Part shown: positions 9,058-16,936 of the stretch, piece after piece
How the letters are laid out: each line of letters begins with the position of its first letter
How positions within the stretch are numbered: the stretch's first letter is position 1
Assembly (NCBI GenBank): GCA_022769545.1
Contig: JALEJS010000024.1
Span: 124,001-188,000, forward strand
From: Blautia sp.
GTDB taxonomy: Bacteria; Bacillota; Clostridia; Lachnospirales; Lachnospiraceae
DNA length: 64,000 nucleotides
Direction: 5' to 3'
Made by a program: the position numbers and the translations under genes
The notes under the pieces: generated by a model
Database searches by the model: none
Seen by the model: only the letters and a program-made list of their open reading frames with translations
What the model was told of the DNA's origin: nothing

Positions 9058-11712
9058 TTACCAGACAACCGGAATCCGGTTGGAGACATAAGATGTGTGG
9101 GAGTAACGGTCATTTCTTTGCTTCTGGTTCACAAAAAGCACCTCCGTCTGTGGGGTCTGCGCACTGAGTACTGTCCGGGCAACCGCCACCTCCTCCGGTT
9201 TGAGACCGTAAGCCGGTGTATTCAGACGGGTGACCGTAACATTGCCGGAAACCCCTACAAGATCAGACAGGTAATAACGCAGTGTGGGAAGCTCTCTGAT
9301 CTGATAGCTGCCATATACCACATTGTAAAATTTCCTGCTCACATATGCATAACCGTCTGCATCCACCTGCAGCTGATCCGGATGGAACCGAATACTTCCG
9401 CAGTATTCATGCGGAAGACCTGCCTCATCGCTTCCGGAGACAGAAAACTGAAACACAGGATATCCATGGGCCCAGACAATCTCTTCTGCCCTGATTTTCT
9501 TAGTAATGACGACGGTTCCGGTTCCCGGCAGCTTTCGTCGGTTTGTCACCCGAAAGGAAAATGTCTGCGGATTTTTTGTCAGCTGAATTTCCCGGCTCCA
9601 TTCTCCCTCATAACCATCCGGATTTTTCGTCTCCCGGATCAGAAATTTCCCCTTATTCTTTTCGCTGTACTGTATGGTTCCGGATTCATAACGCCCCGTC
9701 GTCTGATTGTAGCTGAGCCTGTCTCCGGTGGTCTGATAGGCTGCAGATGAGGCAGACCACTCATACAGAACAAATTCTGCTCCTGTAAGGGAATCGCCTG
9801 TTGTTTCGTCCGCTTTTTCTATGGAAATACTCCCCTTCAATACAGGTGTATCCTTTACGGTGAGCGAAGCCTCTGTTTTCGAGGAATCTGTCACATTTGC
9901 CCGGACCGTCACAGAATGGGAGGTACTGTCCTTTAAATAGCTTTCCGGACTTGTGGTTTCCTTCACATAATATTTTCCGGGAATCAGTGCCGAAAACCGT
10001 ATCTGCCCGCTGGAATTGGTTGTACCTGACAGAACCTTGGTGTCTTTTTTATAAACCAGTACATTTCCGGAATAGAGATCCTCCGCAGCATACAGTCCGT
10101 AAACGGCATCTGCAACCCCGCCTGACGTTCTCGAGTCTTTCTTCGTCAGAAGCAATGTCCCCTGTGGCTGTGATTCCAATGTCAGACGCAGTGTCCCCTG
10201 CGTTCCCTGATATGCATATGCTCCGTAATCCTGATACGCAGTACTGTTGAACTGTTCGCTGGTATCCACAAGAAGAAAAGAAACCGGCTTGAGCAGCATG
10301 GAAAACGTAAACGTCCTGGAAGAAATCATTGATTTCGGAAAAACAAATCTCATTCTTCCGCCGGCTTTCAGATTTACAGTGCCGGAGTCCGGACCGACCC
10401 GGGGATCTGATTCTCCCCGTTCTTTATAATCATCTGCGCTGGTCCAGTACAGAAGCTGCCATTGATCGGAAGACTTCCGGGTGACCGAAATCCCGTTGGA
10501 GGCAGCAGAGCTGTCGGAAACTGCAATCAGACGGGAAATATAATATCCATTTTGAAAGGTATCCTTCAGATACGTGGCAGAAGCGGCACGTTTGGAATGA
10601 AGCACCAGGTAAGAATTGAGTGAGGTACCGGTTACCGTCTCATTTGCTTTGTTCGGGGTGGTGAGCTTTGTATTATTGTGAGACGGAACCGGCATGGACT
10701 GTATCTTTGTCAGGAACCGGTTAATACCCACATGCTCCAGTTCTGCAGCCGTGGCACCTCCCACATCGGAAGAATACGTTTTCGACAGTGCCACATGCGT
10801 GAACACAAACCGGTTCTGCCACTTTGTCCAGTCAATATGAGAGCAGGAAGGATCATAGGTGCTGCAGATATCTCCCGGTCCTCCGTAGCCGTAATAGAGT
10901 ATCTTCCGCAGTGTCGTGCTGGACAGTGCTTTCACTGCTTCGCTCTCAATGACGCCGTCTCCAATGCTTCCCTTCATGGCATTCAGGCAATAGATCGGAG
11001 CCTTTCGGCTGACGCCTTCCGAATCCACATATGTAATCAGCCGGTAGACGGTTGCCATCCTTGTGGAATTTCCGCCGATATAATCATTGGCCGCTGTCCA
11101 GACCTCATCACAGTAGATTCGGGTTCCGTTTTTTATGTAATAATAATCCGGTTCCAGCGCCGCAGCCATCACCTCACTGCTCATGGTTTCCACAAGAATA
11201 TCCGCATCCTGTGTCACCGGCGGTTCCGCCACAGAAACCAGTCCGATCACATTTCCCTCCTCAATTTCCTGAATCAGTTCTTCCGAAGCCTCATCTGCTG
11301 CGGTCAGATGCTCTGCCTGACTTTCATCGAGGAAAAACATGGTTTCCGGTTCTTCCGTTTCCGGCTCTGCTTCCGGGTCAGTCTCTGATGCAGCCGGATC
11401 CTCCTGTGCTGTAATCTCTGCCTCGGGAAATTCTGCTGTCGGTTCCATTTCCGGAAGGTTTTCTTCCAACTCCGTTTCCGGCTTCCCCTCCGGAACATCA
11501 TCAGCTGAAGGTTCGGGATCTGCTTCTTCTGCTTCCGTCGTTTCCGGCAATCTGTCTGCTTCCGTTTCCGGCAGCTCCTCATACATTGCTTCGAAGTCCA
11601 TCGCCCCCTCCTGCACAGGTTCATCCCCATCAGTATGTTCGCCAGACACTTCCGCCAAAGACTGAAACAGCAGTGAGCTCAAAACCAACGTCATGATCAG
11701 TAATTTCTTCAC
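9058..11712 (-). CDS. Secreted thioester/SpaA-domain surface adhesin
   Basis: 884 residues. A signal peptide (1-21) is followed by an acidic E/P/T/D-rich stretch to about 185, then a thioester-type (TQXA/TED) domain at about 190-340 with the candidate thioester cysteine in PIYCLNAMKG (Cys242). The motif that usually supplies the partner glutamine reads FTHVALS (304-310), with His306 at the expected site. Two SpaA/Cna-B prealbumin-like domains follow (about 516-605 and 625-722; TKKD, KETTSP, IRETKNPDGY), then a last beta domain (about 731-865). No C-terminal LPXTG, membrane helix or basic tail is present. The start is GTG 11712, overlapping the upstream stop (GTGA). It is the last gene of a four-gene surface operon. 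Confidence 0.75.
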   Translation of the reverse strand: MKKLLIMTLVLSSLLFQSLAEVSGEHTDGDEPVQEGAMDFEAMYEELPETEADRLPETTEAEEADPEPSADDVPEGKPETELEENLPEMEPTAEFPEAEITAQEDPAASETDPEAEPETEEPETMFFLDESQAEHLTAADEASEELIQEIEEGNVIGLVSVAEPPVTQDADILVETMSSEVMAAALEPDYYYIKNGTRIYCDEVWTAANDYIGGNSTRMATVYRLITYVDSEGVSRKAPIYCLNAMKGSIGDGVIESEAVKALSSTTLRKILYYGYGGPGDICSTYDPSCSHIDWTKWQNRFVFTHVALSKTYSSDVGGATAAELEHVGINRFLTKIQSMPVPSHNNTKLTTPNKANETVTGTSLNSYLVLHSKRAASATYLKDTFQNGYYISRLIAVSDSSAASNGISVTRKSSDQWQLLYWTSADDYKERGESDPRVGPDSGTVNLKAGGRMRFVFPKSMISSRTFTFSMLLKPVSFLLVDTSEQFNSTAYQDYGAYAYQGTQGTLRLTLESQPQGTLLLTKKDSRTSGGVADAVYGLYAAEDLYSGNVLVYKKDTKVLSGTTNSSGQIRFSALIPGKYYVKETTSPESYLKDSTSHSVTVRANVTDSSKTEASLTVKDTPVLKGSISIEKADETTGDSLTGAEFVLYEWSASSAAYQTTGDRLSYNQTTGRYESGTIQYSEKNKGKFLIRETKNPDGYEGEWSREIQLTKNPQTFSFRVTNRRKLPGTGTVVITKKIRAEEIVWAHGYPVFQFSVSGSDEAGLPHEYCGSIRFHPDQLQVDADGYAYVSRKFYNVVYGSYQIRELPTLRYYLSDLVGVSGNVTVTRLNTPAYGLKPEEVAVARTVLSAQTPQTEVLFVNQKQRNDRYSHTSYVSNRIPVVW

Positions 11713-12917
11713 GACTTATCCACTCCCTTTCTTTTTAAAATCCAGATCAGATATGCCAGTATTGCCGATGCAACCAGTATTTTGATCCAGAGAGTCACAG
11801 CAGAAGAATCCTCTGTCTTCGCATTCTTCGCACGGGATGTATTATGATCTGCTTTTTTCTCATGCGCCGCTGCAGTTACAGCTGTTTCCACCGTCTCCTT
11901 TTCCTGGCGAAACGCGGAAAAAATCCATTTTACTGCCGTCTTTCGAAGCGCATAGGAATTGTCAAACGAATTTGGCACACAGACCTTAAAATCCAGCGTT
12001 CCCTTTCCCCCGGCCGGAAGCTGAGCAAGAAGGATTCCCTTTTTCAGCGAATCCGCACGCAGATTTCCTGCATAAACGGTCTGCGAATTATAATTGATCT
12101 GCAGGGAGATTTCATCCAGCAGCGCCTGCTCTTCTTCCTTCAGATCCGGAATATCTGTCTGAAAATAGAGTCTGACCGGATCATTGCTGTTGTTGTACAC
12201 TTTTGCGGAATCAAACAATTCATCTCCCGGCATGGCATTATGAAAATTGCGGAAGAAATCTCCCGGCAGAGTGAGAAGCTTCATCGCCTGCTCATTGATC
12301 TCTACCATCAGTTTCATATTTTCTCTCTGAATGGTCGTGTTCCCGTTTTCTTCGTGAACACAGCTCTGTATTTCTTCCTCATACCACGGAGAATCGGTTG
12401 AAAAGGCCGGCTGGAAATTTGCTTCCTGAATCGCCTCCGCAATAATCTCCAGTGAAAGCTCCTGGCCGGCATGTTCCGATCCCCATTCCTTCGGATACCG
12501 GATTCCCCGGAACAGATCCACATGCTCCTCCTTTTCCAGCGGCAGCGTGTAATACAGATACTCTCCCCGCCGGACCCAGGAATCCTGGAGTCCCTGAAGC
12601 AGCTCATAAGAAAGTCCCTCCAGATCCGGTCTGGAATTTTTAAAAATCAGACGGACTCTTATCCAGCATCTTTGTGCATAATTTGTGATTCTGGGAATTT
12701 TGGATACCTCATCCCCTGGCAGTACCTCACCGGAACCGCAATACGGAACTTCCTTTCCGTCTTTGATCTCGTATTCCCGGATTCCGATGCGGATATCTCC
12801 CAGCTCTATTTCATTCTGGATACTTCCCTTTCGATATGCGATTCCATATACCGATGTTGCACAGAAGAAAATCGAAAGAATGATCAGAAGCAGCATACCT
12901 GTATTTTTTTCTTTCAA
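11709..12917 (-). CDS. Membrane-tethered TasA/CalY-like surface protein
   Basis: 402 residues if the TTG at 12917 is used; that codon has GAGGGGAG seven bases upstream, whereas the upstream in-frame ATG at 12956 lies inside the preceding gene with no ribosome site. It has an N-terminal hydrophobic signal/anchor, then a region resembling CalY/TasA proteins (NEIELGDIRIGI, VLPGDEVSKIPRITN, CWIRVRLIF). A second half of similar rhythm follows (AMPGDELFDSAKVYNNSNDPVRLYF written in parts: AMPGDELF, VYNNSNDPVRLYF). The C-terminus is AKTEDSS, a hydrophobic helix and KRKGVDKS, like a degenerate sorting signal. It sits between two SipW-type genes and the adhesin and could anchor them. No family name is certain. 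Confidence 0.6.
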   Translation of the reverse strand: MKEKNTGMLLLIILSIFFCATSVYGIAYRKGSIQNEIELGDIRIGIREYEIKDGKEVPYCGSGEVLPGDEVSKIPRITNYAQRCWIRVRLIFKNSRPDLEGLSYELLQGLQDSWVRRGEYLYYTLPLEKEEHVDLFRGIRYPKEWGSEHAGQELSLEIIAEAIQEANFQPAFSTDSPWYEEEIQSCVHEENGNTTIQRENMKLMVEINEQAMKLLTLPGDFFRNFHNAMPGDELFDSAKVYNNSNDPVRLYFQTDIPDLKEEEQALLDEISLQINYNSQTVYAGNLRADSLKKGILLAQLPAGGKGTLDFKVCVPNSFDNSYALRKTAVKWIFSAFRQEKETVETAVTAAAHEKKADHNTSRAKNAKTEDSSAVTLWIKILVASAILAYLIWILKRKGVDKS

Positions 12918-12931
12918 TGAATCACTCCCCT

Positions 12932-13483
12932 CTACATAGAAGCAGATGATCCGCAAATCGTTTCCCAGGCAGCCTGGTAATCCTCAAAGCCTTCTGCCTG
13001 AACCGATTCCTCGTATACATCCAGATCCAGATACTCGATCTGTTCCTGATAGGTCGGTTCGGCAGCATCCTTCAGAAGCTGTATCCGCCTAAACAGAGGA
13101 GTTGTGGCATCTCCCGGCATCAGAATATTTTTATAATAATAAAATCCGTCGCCGGAGGAATATACCCAGTTTACCTGATCCATATCCAGAAGCTTTACTG
13201 CCCTCGCAATATCATCATTTGAATACAGAATACGGGCTCTTACATAACAGGGAACGTTTCCCTCGGAGGCGTTGTTTACGATTTGTACTTTTTTTGTATA
13301 TATGGGATTTTTGATAAGAGGTGTGGGCGAGACAGGAGGAAACTCTTCTGAGATTTCCGTGTGCTGATAACCTGCCCGGAGGACATTCACAGTGCCATCC
13401 TGATCAGTCAGATATGCCTGTGTTCCATGAATGAGAAGAAAGGATACGGTTGCTGCAGACAGAATCCGGACCGTCTTTTTCAT
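12932..13483 (-). CDS. SipW-type signal peptide protein, TasA/CalY-like (second paralogue)
   Basis: 183 residues. The N-terminus MKKTVRILSAATVSFLLIHG ends in TQAYLTDQD, the hallmark of secreted proteins processed by the SipW-type signal peptidase (TasA, CalY/camelysin). The mature part shows the usual order: a short strand after the signal, a proline-rich loop, KKVQIVNN, CYVRARI, a Y/F-rich stretch YYKNILMPGD, then LFRRIQL. GGGGAAAG and an ATGA overlap with the preceding gene support ATG 13483. It is likely a fibre or coat subunit exported to the surface. No SipW peptidase gene is in the window. Confidence 0.7.
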   Translation of the reverse strand: MKKTVRILSAATVSFLLIHGTQAYLTDQDGTVNVLRAGYQHTEISEEFPPVSPTPLIKNPIYTKKVQIVNNASEGNVPCYVRARILYSNDDIARAVKLLDMDQVNWVYSSGDGFYYYKNILMPGDATTPLFRRIQLLKDAAEPTYQEQIEYLDLDVYEESVQAEGFEDYQAAWETICGSSASM

Positions 13484-14115
13484 GAACTGCTTTCCCCGGT
13501 ACTGTTCTGCCGGATGTATTTCTGATATGCTTCCTGAACCTGTGTGTCGATGGCTGCATCGGCAGACGCCGTATGGTTTGTCTGAATGGCATAGGCATTC
13601 ACAGGAATATCAAAAGAGGTATTATCGATTTGTCCCTCTATGACATTTGCAAAAGTAACGGTATCAAACAATGTCTGCGTTGTCTCCCCGGGCTTTAATA
13701 CCTTCTGATATGCATAGACATAAGTGGCAGATGTGTCGTTTTTATTCTGCTCCAGCAGTTTCCACTGGTCATTGATCTGATAAGAAAACAGTTCCGTAGC
13801 CGCAGATTCATTTCTGGTACCGTCTGCTGCAGCTGTAATCACATCTCTGACAGGAATCGTCACTTCCAGATAAACATAAGCATCATTGGAACCGGAATTT
13901 ACGATCTGAGGATCCTTCTGTATTTCATCCAGAGGAACCATTTCTGTGTGGTCATCCGGATTCCAGGATGGCTCCTGAAGATCAATGGATACTTTTCCGA
14001 CCGTAAATTCATTCACAACCGAATCACGATCCGTCAAATATGCAGATGTACCGCCAATGATCAGTACTCCGGCGGCAACCACTGCAGGAATTATTTTTCG
14101 ATAGTTTTTATTCAT
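13480..14115 (-). CDS. SipW-type signal peptide protein, TasA/CalY-like (first paralogue)
   Basis: 211 residues. MNKNYRKIIPAVVAAGVLII followed by GGTSAYLTDRD is a clear SipW-dependent signal. The mature chain has the CalY/TasA layout: NEFTVGKVSIDLQEP, then KDPQIVNSGSNDAYVYLEVTI (in pieces: PQIVNSG, AYVYLEV), VYAYQKVLKPGETTQTLFD and a C-terminal NVIEGQ strand and tail. These proteins form amyloid-like or donor-strand matrix fibres in Bacillus, so a matrix or fimbria-like role is inferred. The ATG is unusually far (about 25 bases) from its best Shine-Dalgarno, GGAG, with a palindrome in between, and is directly preceded by a small ORF ending two bases upstream. Confidence 0.72.
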   Translation of the reverse strand: MNKNYRKIIPAVVAAGVLIIGGTSAYLTDRDSVVNEFTVGKVSIDLQEPSWNPDDHTEMVPLDEIQKDPQIVNSGSNDAYVYLEVTIPVRDVITAAADGTRNESAATELFSYQINDQWKLLEQNKNDTSATYVYAYQKVLKPGETTQTLFDTVTFANVIEGQIDNTSFDIPVNAYAIQTNHTASADAAIDTQVQEAYQKYIRQNSTGESSS

Positions 14116-14117
14116 AA

Positions 14118-14279
14118 TTATGCTGCATGCCAGGCATGCGCTCCTTTCTTTTTTGTTAACAATAAAAACAATTGGGTATTACTCACCGCTTCATTTATAG
14201 AAGCGGAAGTCTTCTTCGACTGAGAAAGAATCCTCCGTACTTCTTTCGGCGGCGGACGAATAAAAAATGGATATCTCAT
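14118..14279 (-). CDS. Possible small leader ORF (53 aa) ahead of the surface operon
   Basis: ATG 14279 has AAGGAG five bases upstream and reads 53 codons to a TAA two bases before the first TasA-like start. The peptide begins MRYPFFIRPPPKEVRRIL, is basic, has no membrane segment and matches no family I recognise. It lies downstream of a strong promoter and upstream of the coupled operon, so it may be a translated leader that couples or regulates the next gene, or a small regulator. It could also be a chance frame, although the ribosome site is the best in this transcript. Confidence 0.4.
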   Translation of the reverse strand: MRYPFFIRPPPKEVRRILSQSKKTSASINEAVSNTQLFLLLTKKKGAHAWHAA

Positions 14280-14485: not shown

Positions 14486-16846
14486 TCAGTCTTTTTTCCG
14501 TTTTCTTACAAGAGTGTATCCTCCTGCCAGCACAGATGCCGACAAAAGCATCAACAAGGTTCCAAGCGGCGTCTCATCTGCGGTTCTGGCTCCATTCGAT
14601 TTTGTGGTTCCTGTCGAAGAACCGGAACCGGAATGGTTGGAAGCATCTGCCCCATTTGTTCCGCCTTCATCCCCGCCTTCCGGATCTGTGCCGGAACCGC
14701 CCAGATCACCGTAATCCTGGGCATCATAGCCGTTCTCTCCGAGATCATCATCCGGAACAGGCGTGCCGGACAGCTTCGCATAGAATTTCTCCGGATCCAG
14801 CTCCGCCGACCGGAAGGATACCGCCACGCGGTCCTTATAACCCTGACGCTGCCAGCTGCCGTTTGTATAGACATATTTCCGGAACCAGATATACATCGTA
14901 TAATCCTGTGCATGCAGAATTCCCTTGGAATTTCCGATTTCAAATTCTTTGGAATCCGCCTCATCCTGTGCGGAAAAATCATTGTCATTCGGCGTATAAT
15001 TGGGATTCGTCGCAAAGGTGAACGGACACCATTTCACATCCCCCTCCTGCGGACTGCTGTTGCCGGTACCTGCGCCAGTCACTGTGAACCGGTACATATA
15101 ATACGGATAAAATTCCAGTTCTCCGTCCAGACCTTCCACACTGCATTCGGTCACCTTAACCGCAGGACGGACCGGAACCGGTGTCGCAGTCGGTCCCTTC
15201 GTCGGTGTCGGTGTCGCAGTGGGGCGTCCTGCTGAAGCGGCACTGAGGTCCACATAGCTGTTTACAACGCCATAATTCTCATCCTCTGCCTGTAAAAACA
15301 GTACGTATTTTCGGTTCGGGCTGAGATTCTTCAGTGAAATACTGAATGTCTTTCCTGCGGAAACATCCATGGAACGAGCCGAATCCGATTTGAAATCGCT
15401 GTTGCGAAGCTGGATTTCCGTTCGCGACTCCTTATATTCCTTTACAAGATAACGGCATACACCATCTGCATTACTGTTAAAGATAAACGACGTAGACACA
15501 CTGTCCGGTGTACCATTCCACTTCAGAACCGCACTTCCATTAGAACCGGTTCCAAGAAGCTTCGGCGGAGTTGTGAGATATCCCTTTTTATCCAGTCCGT
15601 ACTCCAGCGGATCATCGTAGATCAGCTGACGTGTTCCGTTGGTTTCAATACTCTTTGAAAGATTTACCTTGCCGGAGGCAGCCTTGATCACCTGCGTTCC
15701 GGCTTTATATTTGTATACCGTAAAGCCGACATTGGAATTGGTCAGTGTGGAACTGATTTCCAGATAGCCTCCCGTCTTACAGTTGATAAATATATTTTCC
15801 AGTTCATTGATCTTGCTGGCTGCAATATCGCTGAAATTTTTTGTCACAAGACCGTTGTTCTTTACTTCCACCGTTCCGCCAAGCACAACCTTGCCATAGC
15901 TTCCGATTCCGCCCCCGCGGTATTTCTTATCCTTCAGATGATATACGCGGTTTCCGGAAATAGTTCCTCCATTCAGCACAACAACACCGGTTTCCGAATT
16001 ATAGATTCCTGCTCCGTGAAAGCTTGAAAAATTATTTTTCAGAGCCACACCGGAATTCATGGTAAAGGTACCGTCATCAATATGTACAATCGATCCGTCA
16101 TACACATTATAATCCTTGGTACCATATTTTCCATATACCGTCAGACTCATGTCTTTCTCAACATCAAACTCCAGAGAGCCGCCAATCAGCTGAAACATGT
16201 CACCTGCTGAGCTCTGACTCCTCATAAGGTCCAGACTCTCCGTGGAAACAAGTTTCACATATTTATCGTTTACGACGATCGTATTTGAGATCAGCATGTA
16301 ATAGCGATCTGAGTTTGAATATTGTTTCCCCTTCAGATAGATCACCTGGGGTTTTTCTTTTGTTCCTGTCGATTCATCGATGGCTTTCTGCAGCTCTTTC
16401 GCCGTAGTGACCACCGTCTTTTCAATCTCGTCATCCAGCGGAACTTCGGTATCCTCCTCACCGGTCAGAAACTGTTCACTGATATCAGAAATAACATTTT
16501 CCTGCGGTGCATCAGCCATATTTTCATCTTCCGGTGTCTGCTCATCCGAATCCATGGAGTTTGCATCCTGATCGGAAGTCTCCGTCGGCTGCGGTGTCAC
16601 AGACGGTTCCGTTTCTGAATTTCCGTCATCCTCCGGTACATCAGAAGGAGTCTCAGAATCCACCGGTTCTGTATCTATCATATCTTCCTCTGTTTCTGCT
16701 GCCAGAATCTCTCCCAGAGACGAATCTTCCTCTGTCACGGAAGAACCGGCGGCCACCGGATCACTCTGTGCCGCAGCAGTCACCGGAACGGATGCGAAAG
16801 ATACCGCACCGGTGAGCAGAAGTGCCAAAAGCTGTTTCTGTTTCAT
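14486..16846 (-). CDS. Large cell-surface protein with beta-helix-like region and degenerate sorting signal
   Basis: 786 residues. A signal peptide MKQKQLLALLLTGAVSFASV is followed by an acidic S/T/E/D/P-rich stretch (to about 140). Next comes a region of short glycine/asparagine-rich repeats (GSIVHIDDGTFTMNSG, GAGIYNSETGVVVLNGGTIS, GGGIGSYGKVVLGGTV), typical of a right-handed beta-helix or pectate-lyase-like fold. A fibronectin-like stretch, a TPTPTKGPTATPVP linker and one further beta domain follow. The C-terminus GARTADETP, a hydrophobic helix and VRKRKKD looks like a divergent wall-sorting signal lacking LPXTG. ATG 16846 was chosen for AGGAGG upstream. Function is probably adhesion or glycan binding; no known family is assigned. 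Confidence 0.65.
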   Translation of the reverse strand: MKQKQLLALLLTGAVSFASVPVTAAAQSDPVAAGSSVTEEDSSLGEILAAETEEDMIDTEPVDSETPSDVPEDDGNSETEPSVTPQPTETSDQDANSMDSDEQTPEDENMADAPQENVISDISEQFLTGEEDTEVPLDDEIEKTVVTTAKELQKAIDESTGTKEKPQVIYLKGKQYSNSDRYYMLISNTIVVNDKYVKLVSTESLDLMRSQSSAGDMFQLIGGSLEFDVEKDMSLTVYGKYGTKDYNVYDGSIVHIDDGTFTMNSGVALKNNFSSFHGAGIYNSETGVVVLNGGTISGNRVYHLKDKKYRGGGIGSYGKVVLGGTVEVKNNGLVTKNFSDIAASKINELENIFINCKTGGYLEISSTLTNSNVGFTVYKYKAGTQVIKAASGKVNLSKSIETNGTRQLIYDDPLEYGLDKKGYLTTPPKLLGTGSNGSAVLKWNGTPDSVSTSFIFNSNADGVCRYLVKEYKESRTEIQLRNSDFKSDSARSMDVSAGKTFSISLKNLSPNRKYVLFLQAEDENYGVVNSYVDLSAASAGRPTATPTPTKGPTATPVPVRPAVKVTECSVEGLDGELEFYPYYMYRFTVTGAGTGNSSPQEGDVKWCPFTFATNPNYTPNDNDFSAQDEADSKEFEIGNSKGILHAQDYTMYIWFRKYVYTNGSWQRQGYKDRVAVSFRSAELDPEKFYAKLSGTPVPDDDLGENGYDAQDYGDLGGSGTDPEGGDEGGTNGADASNHSGSGSSTGTTKSNGARTADETPLGTLLMLLSASVLAGGYTLVRKRKKD

Positions 16847-16936
16847 TTCATTTTCCTCCTGCATTTTCTGCATACATATTGATGTTGGGATCATTTATAA
16901 CAGATCTTATTCCCATTCTCTGATGCTCGTTTCCCT

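Follow-up and report, generated by a model that had tools for sequence, protein, structure and literature searches.

TasA fibres are known as biofilm matrix; to our knowledge, the mode of their attachment to the cell and the presence of adhesins on them are open questions. Assembly that begins at the tip is known from sortase pili and from chaperone-usher pili. The subject of this work is a four-gene operon, A-B-C-D, in a stretch of 64,000 nucleotides (the window) that comprises positions 124001-188000 of contig C37 in the draft genome (2.96 megabases, Mb) of a Blautia species (GCA_022769545.1). All four genes of the operon are intact, and their positions are given in Table 1. We propose that the operon encodes a TasA-type donor-strand pilus with a dedicated tip, D, and a wall-anchored base, C, and we give this reading a probability of about 0.58.

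In Bacillus subtilis the N-terminal strand of each subunit completes the next subunit, and complementation is believed to be required before a subunit can extend its own strand. TapA needs no completion and initiates the chain through an N-terminus that resembles that of TasA (PMC9674648 and PMC10151520); the donor residues reported for TasA are F29, I32 and F39 (PMC9674648). SipW-type signals, relatives of PF12389 and the expected N-terminal donor strand are common to the window operon, this TasA/TapA/SipW system and the TasA/CalY/CapP system of B. cereus. TapA and D would both be initiators with a donor strand and without an acceptor, TapA donating its N-terminus and D its C-terminus. D differs from TapA by its adhesin domains, and a sortase-type base would set the present system apart; for the B. 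cereus system, PMC13082335 describes independence of sortase. The sipW-bsaABCRSD operon of Clostridium perfringens, which we liken to ours by its description in PMC7395162, shares SipW, a polymer subunit of the BsaA family and further secreted proteins; srtB adjoins it, a two-component system lies inside it, and its products BsaB, BsaC and BsaD are described as putatively secreted. Sortase pili (Spa type, or with GBS104-type tips) share the tip heads (TED, VWA, GBS104-like Ig, SpaA/Cna-B), the proposed wall-anchored base and the logic of tip, shaft and base, but the shaft proteins A and B are without a sorting signal, the window is without a sortase and the proposed tip is without LPXTG. The donor-strand principle would be shared with chaperone-usher pili and archaeal threads, including an acceptor-less cap protein, Saci_0405 (PMC9715654). 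The present system differs from these in its subunit family, and inspection by eye, with no profile search made for them, showed neither a chaperone nor an usher next to its genes. In the literature searched, outside of which lie most subscription journals and preprints, we found no Lachnospiraceae or sortase-anchored TasA system and no description of a pilus class of the kind proposed below. An initial annotation, made from the sequence letters, knew of no described system of this exact composition. That annotation described the operon as an export line of fibre subunits, an anchor and a tip adhesin; this outline is supported here, and the donor-like tail of D is a new argument for the tip.

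The proposed shaft subunits and base, and the conserved gene set

Protein A scores above the cut-offs of PF12389 (30.4 bits; cut-off 22.5) and of TIGR04088, the model for SipW-type signals (36.6 bits; cut-off 19). The BsaA model TIGR04090 has a cut-off of 60 bits, and A (42.6) and B (39.8) are both under it, so we regard them as relatives and do not file them as BsaA. For the window B the TIGR04090 and TIGR04088 matches are below cut-off and PF12389 gives no match. Across family members at E-values (E) <0.01, PF12389 matches 27/27 A, 3/30 B and 22/44 C, TIGR04090 matches 27/27, 30/30 and 19/44, and TIGR04088 matches 27/27, 12/30 and 17/44, respectively; the TasA model NF046066 matches 16 of the 27 A. 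Profile-profile comparison with hhalign joins A to B (6e-24), A to domain 1 of C (1e-19) and B to domain 1 of C (7e-28). By these comparisons A, B and domain 1 of C are one superfamily of TasA/BsaA relatives, and searches of PDB sequences with the A, B and C profiles returned no TasA and no other convincing structure. The initial annotation had proposed profile checks on all four proteins: A (PF12389) and D (TED_2, SpaA) are over cut-offs, while the window B and C have no PF12389 match and are kin through the family profiles. The two SipW-type signals it had reported as AYLTD[RQ]D are indeed present in A and B, and neither protein has a C-terminal membrane segment by eye. The predicted mature N-termini carry the donor motif in 27/27 A and 26/30 B.

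Protein C has no Pfam match at E<1 and, in NCBIfam, only weak matches to models below threshold; the window copy itself matches neither PF12389 nor TIGR04090. Its layout consists of a TasA-like domain 1 (C1, residues ~28-190), a second beta domain (C2, ~200-340) and a C-terminal sorting-like signal. The model of C (pLDDT 80) likewise has two beta domains and places an N-terminal membrane segment at residues 5-27, at the end of which many relatives have a SipW-like site; in the window copy this site reads GIAYRKGSIQNEIELG, by eye a degenerate form of the SipW type. The membrane segments seen at both ends in the initial annotation are present, with the correction that the C-terminal one looks, from the ends of its relatives, like a KTGD-type sortase signal: these proteins end in [VIP]KTGD, KTAD or similar, followed by a membrane segment and a basic tail, and a loose form of this pattern is found in 43 of the 44 C family members, including that of the window (the curated srtB_target model matches only 1/44). 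Because the pattern is present in relatives, we set aside the idea that C is a mere membrane protein. Three homologs of C show another type of end. Loci of relatives fetched from outside the window are labelled L0xx-L2xx, and in L053, L055 and L059 repeats rich in glycine and tryptophan take the place of the sorting signal (for L059, domain 1 alone is detected); by eye these resemble what we take to be wall-binding repeats, perhaps an alternative anchor.

Outside the Lachnospiraceae, separate genes encode the two domains of C, as a C1-like subunit with a SipW-type signal and a stand-alone C2 of 218-338 amino acids (aa). We collected 15 stand-alone C2 proteins, leaving out the fused form in L196. 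These have an ordinary-looking signal peptide, and 13/15 (all but L188 and L189) end by eye in a P-x-TG-type signal such as LPSTG, LPKTG, PPKTGD, IPKTGD or VPRTG. Their 14 loci all contain A- or B-like genes, all but L188 contain SipW, and most also encode a large secreted protein; the 12 counted, considered with D below, are 543-1523 aa long. The N-terminal donor motif is in none of the 15 stand-alone C2 proteins and in none of 35 D proteins. One open frame, L200:6896-8779, encodes a C-like protein with a VPQTGD signal and then an A-like subunit with its own signal, for which we propose either a fused base-shaft gene or a polyprotein.

At the protein level, C has matches at E<=0.001 in 44/64 genomes of the genus (39/64 at E<1e-60) and in 37/299 genomes of a family sample; the weak ones in either set may be other subunits. 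The C profile found 38/391 genomes in a class sample, many with one domain only, and the stand-alone base profile 51/398 in a phylum sample, many of them weak and some in broken frames. Fifty named loci were found through C, 47 of them with C above 200 bits, and the window's own record is not among them. Of these, 32 are untruncated, that is, they extend at least 3 kilobases (kb) before and at least 4.5 kb after C, and neighbors were counted within 7 kb on the same strand. Near C we found SipW in 30, A in 31, B in 30 and D in 29 of the 32, and all four together in 28; the exceptions are L117 (no SipW), L118 (no D), L127 (no B or D) and L128 (none of the four). The set is thus not specific to one strain, the point on which the initial annotation had wanted a check, and it recurs in Blautia, Fusicatenibacter, Lacrimispora, Mediterraneibacter and others, usually in the order SipW-A-B-C-D and, in L115 and L121, as A-C-B-D-SipW.

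The statement that SipW lies outside the operon and that no sortase is near holds for the window, which contains none of the genome's matches to either profile; it does not hold for the set as a whole, for with SipW in 30/32 loci the SipW-less window is the exception, and 4/32 loci have a sortase. The one SipW of the genome over cut-off is an orphan ~94 kb away, at 38.4 kb of C37 (TIGR02228, 87.9 bits; Ser-His type by eye). The genome has three sortase matches, two on contig C50 and one on contig C12, the latter of class B (TIGR03064, 173.4 bits; cut-off 153.75). In L106, L107, L111 and L114 a sortase gene follows D directly, and the class B model, with which the last three were scanned, is over cut-off in L107, just under it in L111 and lower in L114. 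One Lacrimispora genome holds L106 and L111 on its contigs 42 and 43, that is, two SipW-A-B-C-D operons each followed by a sortase gene.

Protein D and its C-terminal tail

Protein D begins with what by eye is an ordinary signal peptide and continues with an acidic stretch, TED_2 and a pair of SpaA repeats; a Cna-B-like domain and a tail of 20 residues complete it, without a C-terminal anchor. The initial annotation called it an 884-residue thioester/SpaA protein, and both domains are over cut-off (TED_2 50.4 bits against 27, the sole TED_2 match in the genome; SpaA 98.3 bits against 23.1). The thioester part requires revision. At the position of the thioester Gln (canonical motif TQxA[IV][WS]), a His is found, with the Cys kept, in 16/16 D proteins that have a window-type TED (those of loci L081-L112 plus the window, from 36 scanned, the position being set by the motif), and covalent thioester binding is therefore not expected from sequence. 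The TED of another Lachnospiraceae D, in L113, has the usual TQAAIW. We propose that D is a TED-type adhesin whose TED would be either an inactive thioester or a site of other Cys-His chemistry.

The C-terminal part of D is matched even in D genes whose N-terminal part gives no match. An AlphaFold2 model of the last 273 residues, one SpaA repeat included, has a mean pLDDT of 92, and Foldseek relates it to Cna-B-type pilins and adhesins (the TIE protein of B. anthracis, a streptococcal ancillary pilin and SpaA of L. rhamnosus; E 7e-9 to 6e-8, TM 0.30-0.35 on query). The last strand in this model ends at residue 864, and the tail that follows lies outside the Cna-B domain with pLDDT falling from 78 to 63. 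Over 36 D proteins, that of the window included, the tail has the approximate consensus FxNxKxxYDxYSH[TN]DVVxNxIPV, in which His872 and Asn878 are invariant. A tail that is conserved yet unpacked in the model suggests a binding partner.

The tail resembles the N-terminal strands of A. Both have the same spacing (27/27 A), with an aromatic residue at -8 and a hydrophobic one at +2 from an Asn, and by our own mapping the TasA donor residues F29 and F39 are 10 apart, as are -8 and +2 of the tail (residues as given in PMC9674648). We expressed this as the motif [FYWL]x7Nx[FYILVM] in the last 30 residues, taking as controls 314 further proteins, each 300 aa or longer, that the same loci encode. The motif, with its distance of 8, is found in 35/36 Lachnospiraceae D and in 10/12 distant adhesins, the large proteins that accompany stand-alone C2, compared with 18/314 controls; composition shuffles give ~3/36 and 1.3/12. 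When the last 60 residues of controls were taken, the loose motif occurred in 57/501. At the C-termini of other proteins of the set it is found in 0/27 A, 3/30 B, 1/44 C and 0/15 stand-alone bases. Among the distant adhesins the distances 8 and 9 stand out as they do in the subunits (10/12 each, against ~1.3 in shuffles), while distances 3, 6, 11 and 13 are also frequent in the Lachnospiraceae tails, an effect of their homology.

The resemblance extends over almost the entire strand in some distant tails, namely those of L191 (GWFYDDDRKDNHFTV), L201 (KWFYDEDEVINRFNV) and L192 (GWFHDNDEKNNKFKV), with scores of 13-17 where the highest control reached 7.2. In these three loci the subunits have AWF...NxF and the local D-type tails WF...NxF. 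The tail of L246, SWFRDETETDNFF followed by TV, likewise fits almost the entire strand, and those of L245 and L246 are alike by eye. Heads known from sortase pili are present among the distant adhesins: VWA domains were found in L187, L188, L192, L201, L203, L205, L245, L246 and L261, and a GBS104-like tip-pilin domain in L192, L201, L245 and L246, while L191 and one of the two L190 adhesins carry surface domains of other kinds (the scan did not include L189, L198, L200 or the second L190 protein). Tip heads known from sortase pili, of VWA, GBS104-like and TED type, are therefore found on proteins with the strand motif at or close to their end. Another kind of large secreted protein, with RCC1 repeats (tested in L257) in place of VWA or TED, is present in the TasA-type loci L257 (9555-13454) and L259 of one genome; the L257 tail, SWDEAANKFG, has a shorter spacing.

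With a mixed profile, the D tail has a median rank of 4 among ~1000 positions (36 proteins), and the 99% control level is exceeded by 15/35 Lachnospiraceae and 4/12 distant tails; with the A profile the corresponding figures are 2/35 and 6/12. Against shuffles, the mixed profile favors forward over reversed Lachnospiraceae tails (21/36 and 10/36), and for the 12 distant tails forward leads reversed with both the A profile (6 to 2) and the mixed profile (4 to 2).

Proposed assembly and alternative explanations

Read across from the TasA/TapA scheme, D would be a donor, A and B donors and acceptors, and C2 a wall-anchored acceptor. SipW, encoded elsewhere in this genome, would cleave A, B and, in many relatives, C just before the N-terminal strand YLTDxDxxxNxFTVG, and in the shaft the strand of each subunit would enter the open sandwich of the next. 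D, a donor only, with no recognisable acceptor domain and no anchor, would use its last ~15 residues to imitate a donor strand and fill the groove of the first A, so that the fibre is both started and capped as a tip. C would end the chain, its C2 serving as acceptor only and, as a separate protein, offering no strand. Attachment of C to the wall through its KTGD-type signal would be the work of a sortase, probably one of class B. The chain would then run, tip first, D-A...A-(C1)-C2-wall.

Several results weigh against this proposal, beginning with those on the base and its sortase. In C. perfringens, deletion of srtB left pellicle and BsaA polymers unchanged (PMC7395162). In the fused C the N-terminal donor motif is present in only 26/44. 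With the model of C, Foldseek gave generic beta sandwiches (TM ~0.15, not interpretable), and TasA is absent among the 50 matches listed, so the link of C to the TasA fold rests on sequence profiles. An alternative is a TasA/BsaA-like matrix that has no defined tip, in which A (and B) fibres would be free, C would only tether some of them and D would be a secreted adhesin that sticks to the matrix by other contacts. BsaA of C. perfringens, the closest studied relative, is mainly extracellular, and its polymers need no BsaB, BsaC or SrtB (PMC7395162); A also matches the TIGR04090 family, though below its cut-off. We consider a tipless matrix unlikely, since D stands beside the subunits in 29/32 loci with its C-terminal domain and tail conserved, its tail motif has the spacing of the subunits, and the sorting pattern is kept in 43/44 C.

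The remaining adverse results concern the tail. As the 36 Lachnospiraceae tails are homologous, they amount to nearly one observation. A stricter motif, with hydrophobic residues at -9 and -8, is found in 9/12 distant and 0/35 Lachnospiraceae tails (9/501 controls). The window tail itself ranks 60 of 878 positions with the A-type profile and 15 of 878 with the mixed profile. With the A profile against shuffles (p<0.05), reversed Lachnospiraceae tails do better than forward ones (22/36 and 3/36), possibly an effect of the Cna-B strand just before the tail, which gives N-x-F-T when read in reverse. In view of this control we put weight on the spacing motif and on the distant loci. The 12 distant adhesins, however, were chosen by eye from 20 large proteins, their tails having already been seen; eight were left out as not adhesin-like or cut (L193, L194 twice, L196, L197, L202, L204 and L206), of which L193 seems to fit the motif yet was counted among the controls, and L209, which fits by eye, is in no count. 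In a fresh, rule-based phylum sample the motif occurred in 3/19 candidates and 7/132 controls, which is not significant; most of the 19 candidates are not adhesins. Eight of the fresh candidates were compared with Pfam, and the five with VWA, GBS104 or DUF7601 hold the motif (a post hoc result in which both DUF7601 matches are sub-threshold), three of them within their last 30 residues and the other two, L245 and L246, at 46-52 residues before the end; it is absent from L256 and L257, and from the last 30 residues of the L269 protease. The motif is also loose, as the 18/314 controls indicate. This looseness, the reversed tails and the fresh sample would suit a chance convergence of two short beta strands with Asn and hydrophobic residues. 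Even so, we judge chance convergence very unlikely, because distances 8 and 9 stand out in distant adhesins with different heads, almost the entire strand is matched in L191, L192 and L201, and L245 and L246 are alike by eye. Still less probable is that the D tail serves as some other sorting or processing signal (recognized by an unknown transpeptidase, or binding to the wall) and not as a donor strand: its C-terminal place, its conservation, its lack of packing and the invariant His followed six residues on by an invariant Asn would suit such a role, but no membrane segment follows it as in known sorting signals, and the distant tails of L191, L192 and L201 resemble the local subunits.

We would place even odds on a wider form of the donor-strand proposal, namely a class of Gram-positive pili, in many families of Clostridia, with a sortase-free TasA-like donor-strand shaft, adhesin tips with TED, VWA or GBS104-type heads whose C-terminal tails mimic the strand, and an acceptor-only base fixed by a class B sortase. 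If so, common gut Clostridia would assemble true pili out of TasA-like subunits, tip and base being defined, and would re-use adhesin heads of sortase pili with the LPXTG end swapped for a donor strand. Tips, shafts and bases could then be found by a simple sequence rule, and possible roles would be suggested for BsaB, BsaC and BsaD in the biofilm operon of C. perfringens.

Gene layout and neighboring features

The joints between the genes are as initially annotated, with 4-base overlaps between A and B and between C and D and a gap of 14 bases (12931-12918) between B and C.

Table 1. Positions in the window of the operon genes, their domains and signals, and adjoining features
Feature	Position	Strand	Description
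Gene A	14115-13480	minus	211 aa; SipW-type site GGTSAYLTDRD; likely major fibre subunit, TasA/BsaA-like
Donor strand of A	13996..14040	minus	YLTDRDSVVNEFTVG; predicted mature N-terminus, from alignment; cleavage predicted after Ala25
Gene B	13483-12932	minus	183 aa; SipW-type site GTQAYLTDQD; second, diverged subunit
Donor strand of B	13370..13414	minus	YLTDQDGTVNVLRAG; predicted mature N-terminus, from alignment
Gene C	12917-11709	minus	402 aa from TTG (415 aa in the longest open reading frame); proposed base
Sorting-like signal of C	11712..11822	minus	AKTED, membrane segment, KRKG
Gene D	11712-9058	minus	884 aa; GTG start; adhesin, signal peptide by eye
TED_2 domain of D	10687..10995	minus	Cys241; His where the thioester Gln is expected
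Two SpaA-type repeats of D	9538..10158	minus	from profile
Cna-B-like domain of D	9121..9522	minus	conserved, C-terminal; from alignment, model and Foldseek
Tail of D	9061..9120	minus	QRNDRYSHTSYVSNRIPVVW; proposed donor strand; Y870, N878, I880, V882
53-aa open reading frame	14279-14118	minus	directly before A; good ribosome site
Promoter-like site	14389-14361	minus	TTGATT-17-TATAAT; 10/12 matches
Terminator-like site	14465-14434		after the upstream gene; weak scan
802-aa surface protein	14486-16894	minus	upstream; variant sorting-like end

The 53-aa open reading frame starts at the upper end of the region given in the initial annotation. It has no clear relative in the fetched loci (best E 0.086, in L102), and by profile it is not a SipW remnant (best E 0.042, 2 bits); it is perhaps a leader peptide. 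The promoter-like site is weak evidence because such sites are as numerous in the region as in shuffles (8 and 7.9). With the terminator-like site, from a scan that is weak as well, it leads us to think that the 53-aa frame and A-D probably form one unit.

The window copy combines three features that look degenerate, a SipW outside the operon, the signal site of C and the AKTED form of its sorting-like signal, while all four frames are open. From these features the window operon may work less well than the copies of its relatives.

The upstream 802-aa surface protein ends in the variant sorting-like sequence ARTADETP, followed by a membrane segment and RKRKKD. In some Blautia the same operon is likewise preceded by a relative of this protein (5/32 untruncated loci), and several of these relatives end in KTADE, KTGDD, RTGDS or RTADD; the protein is possibly served by the same sortase as C.

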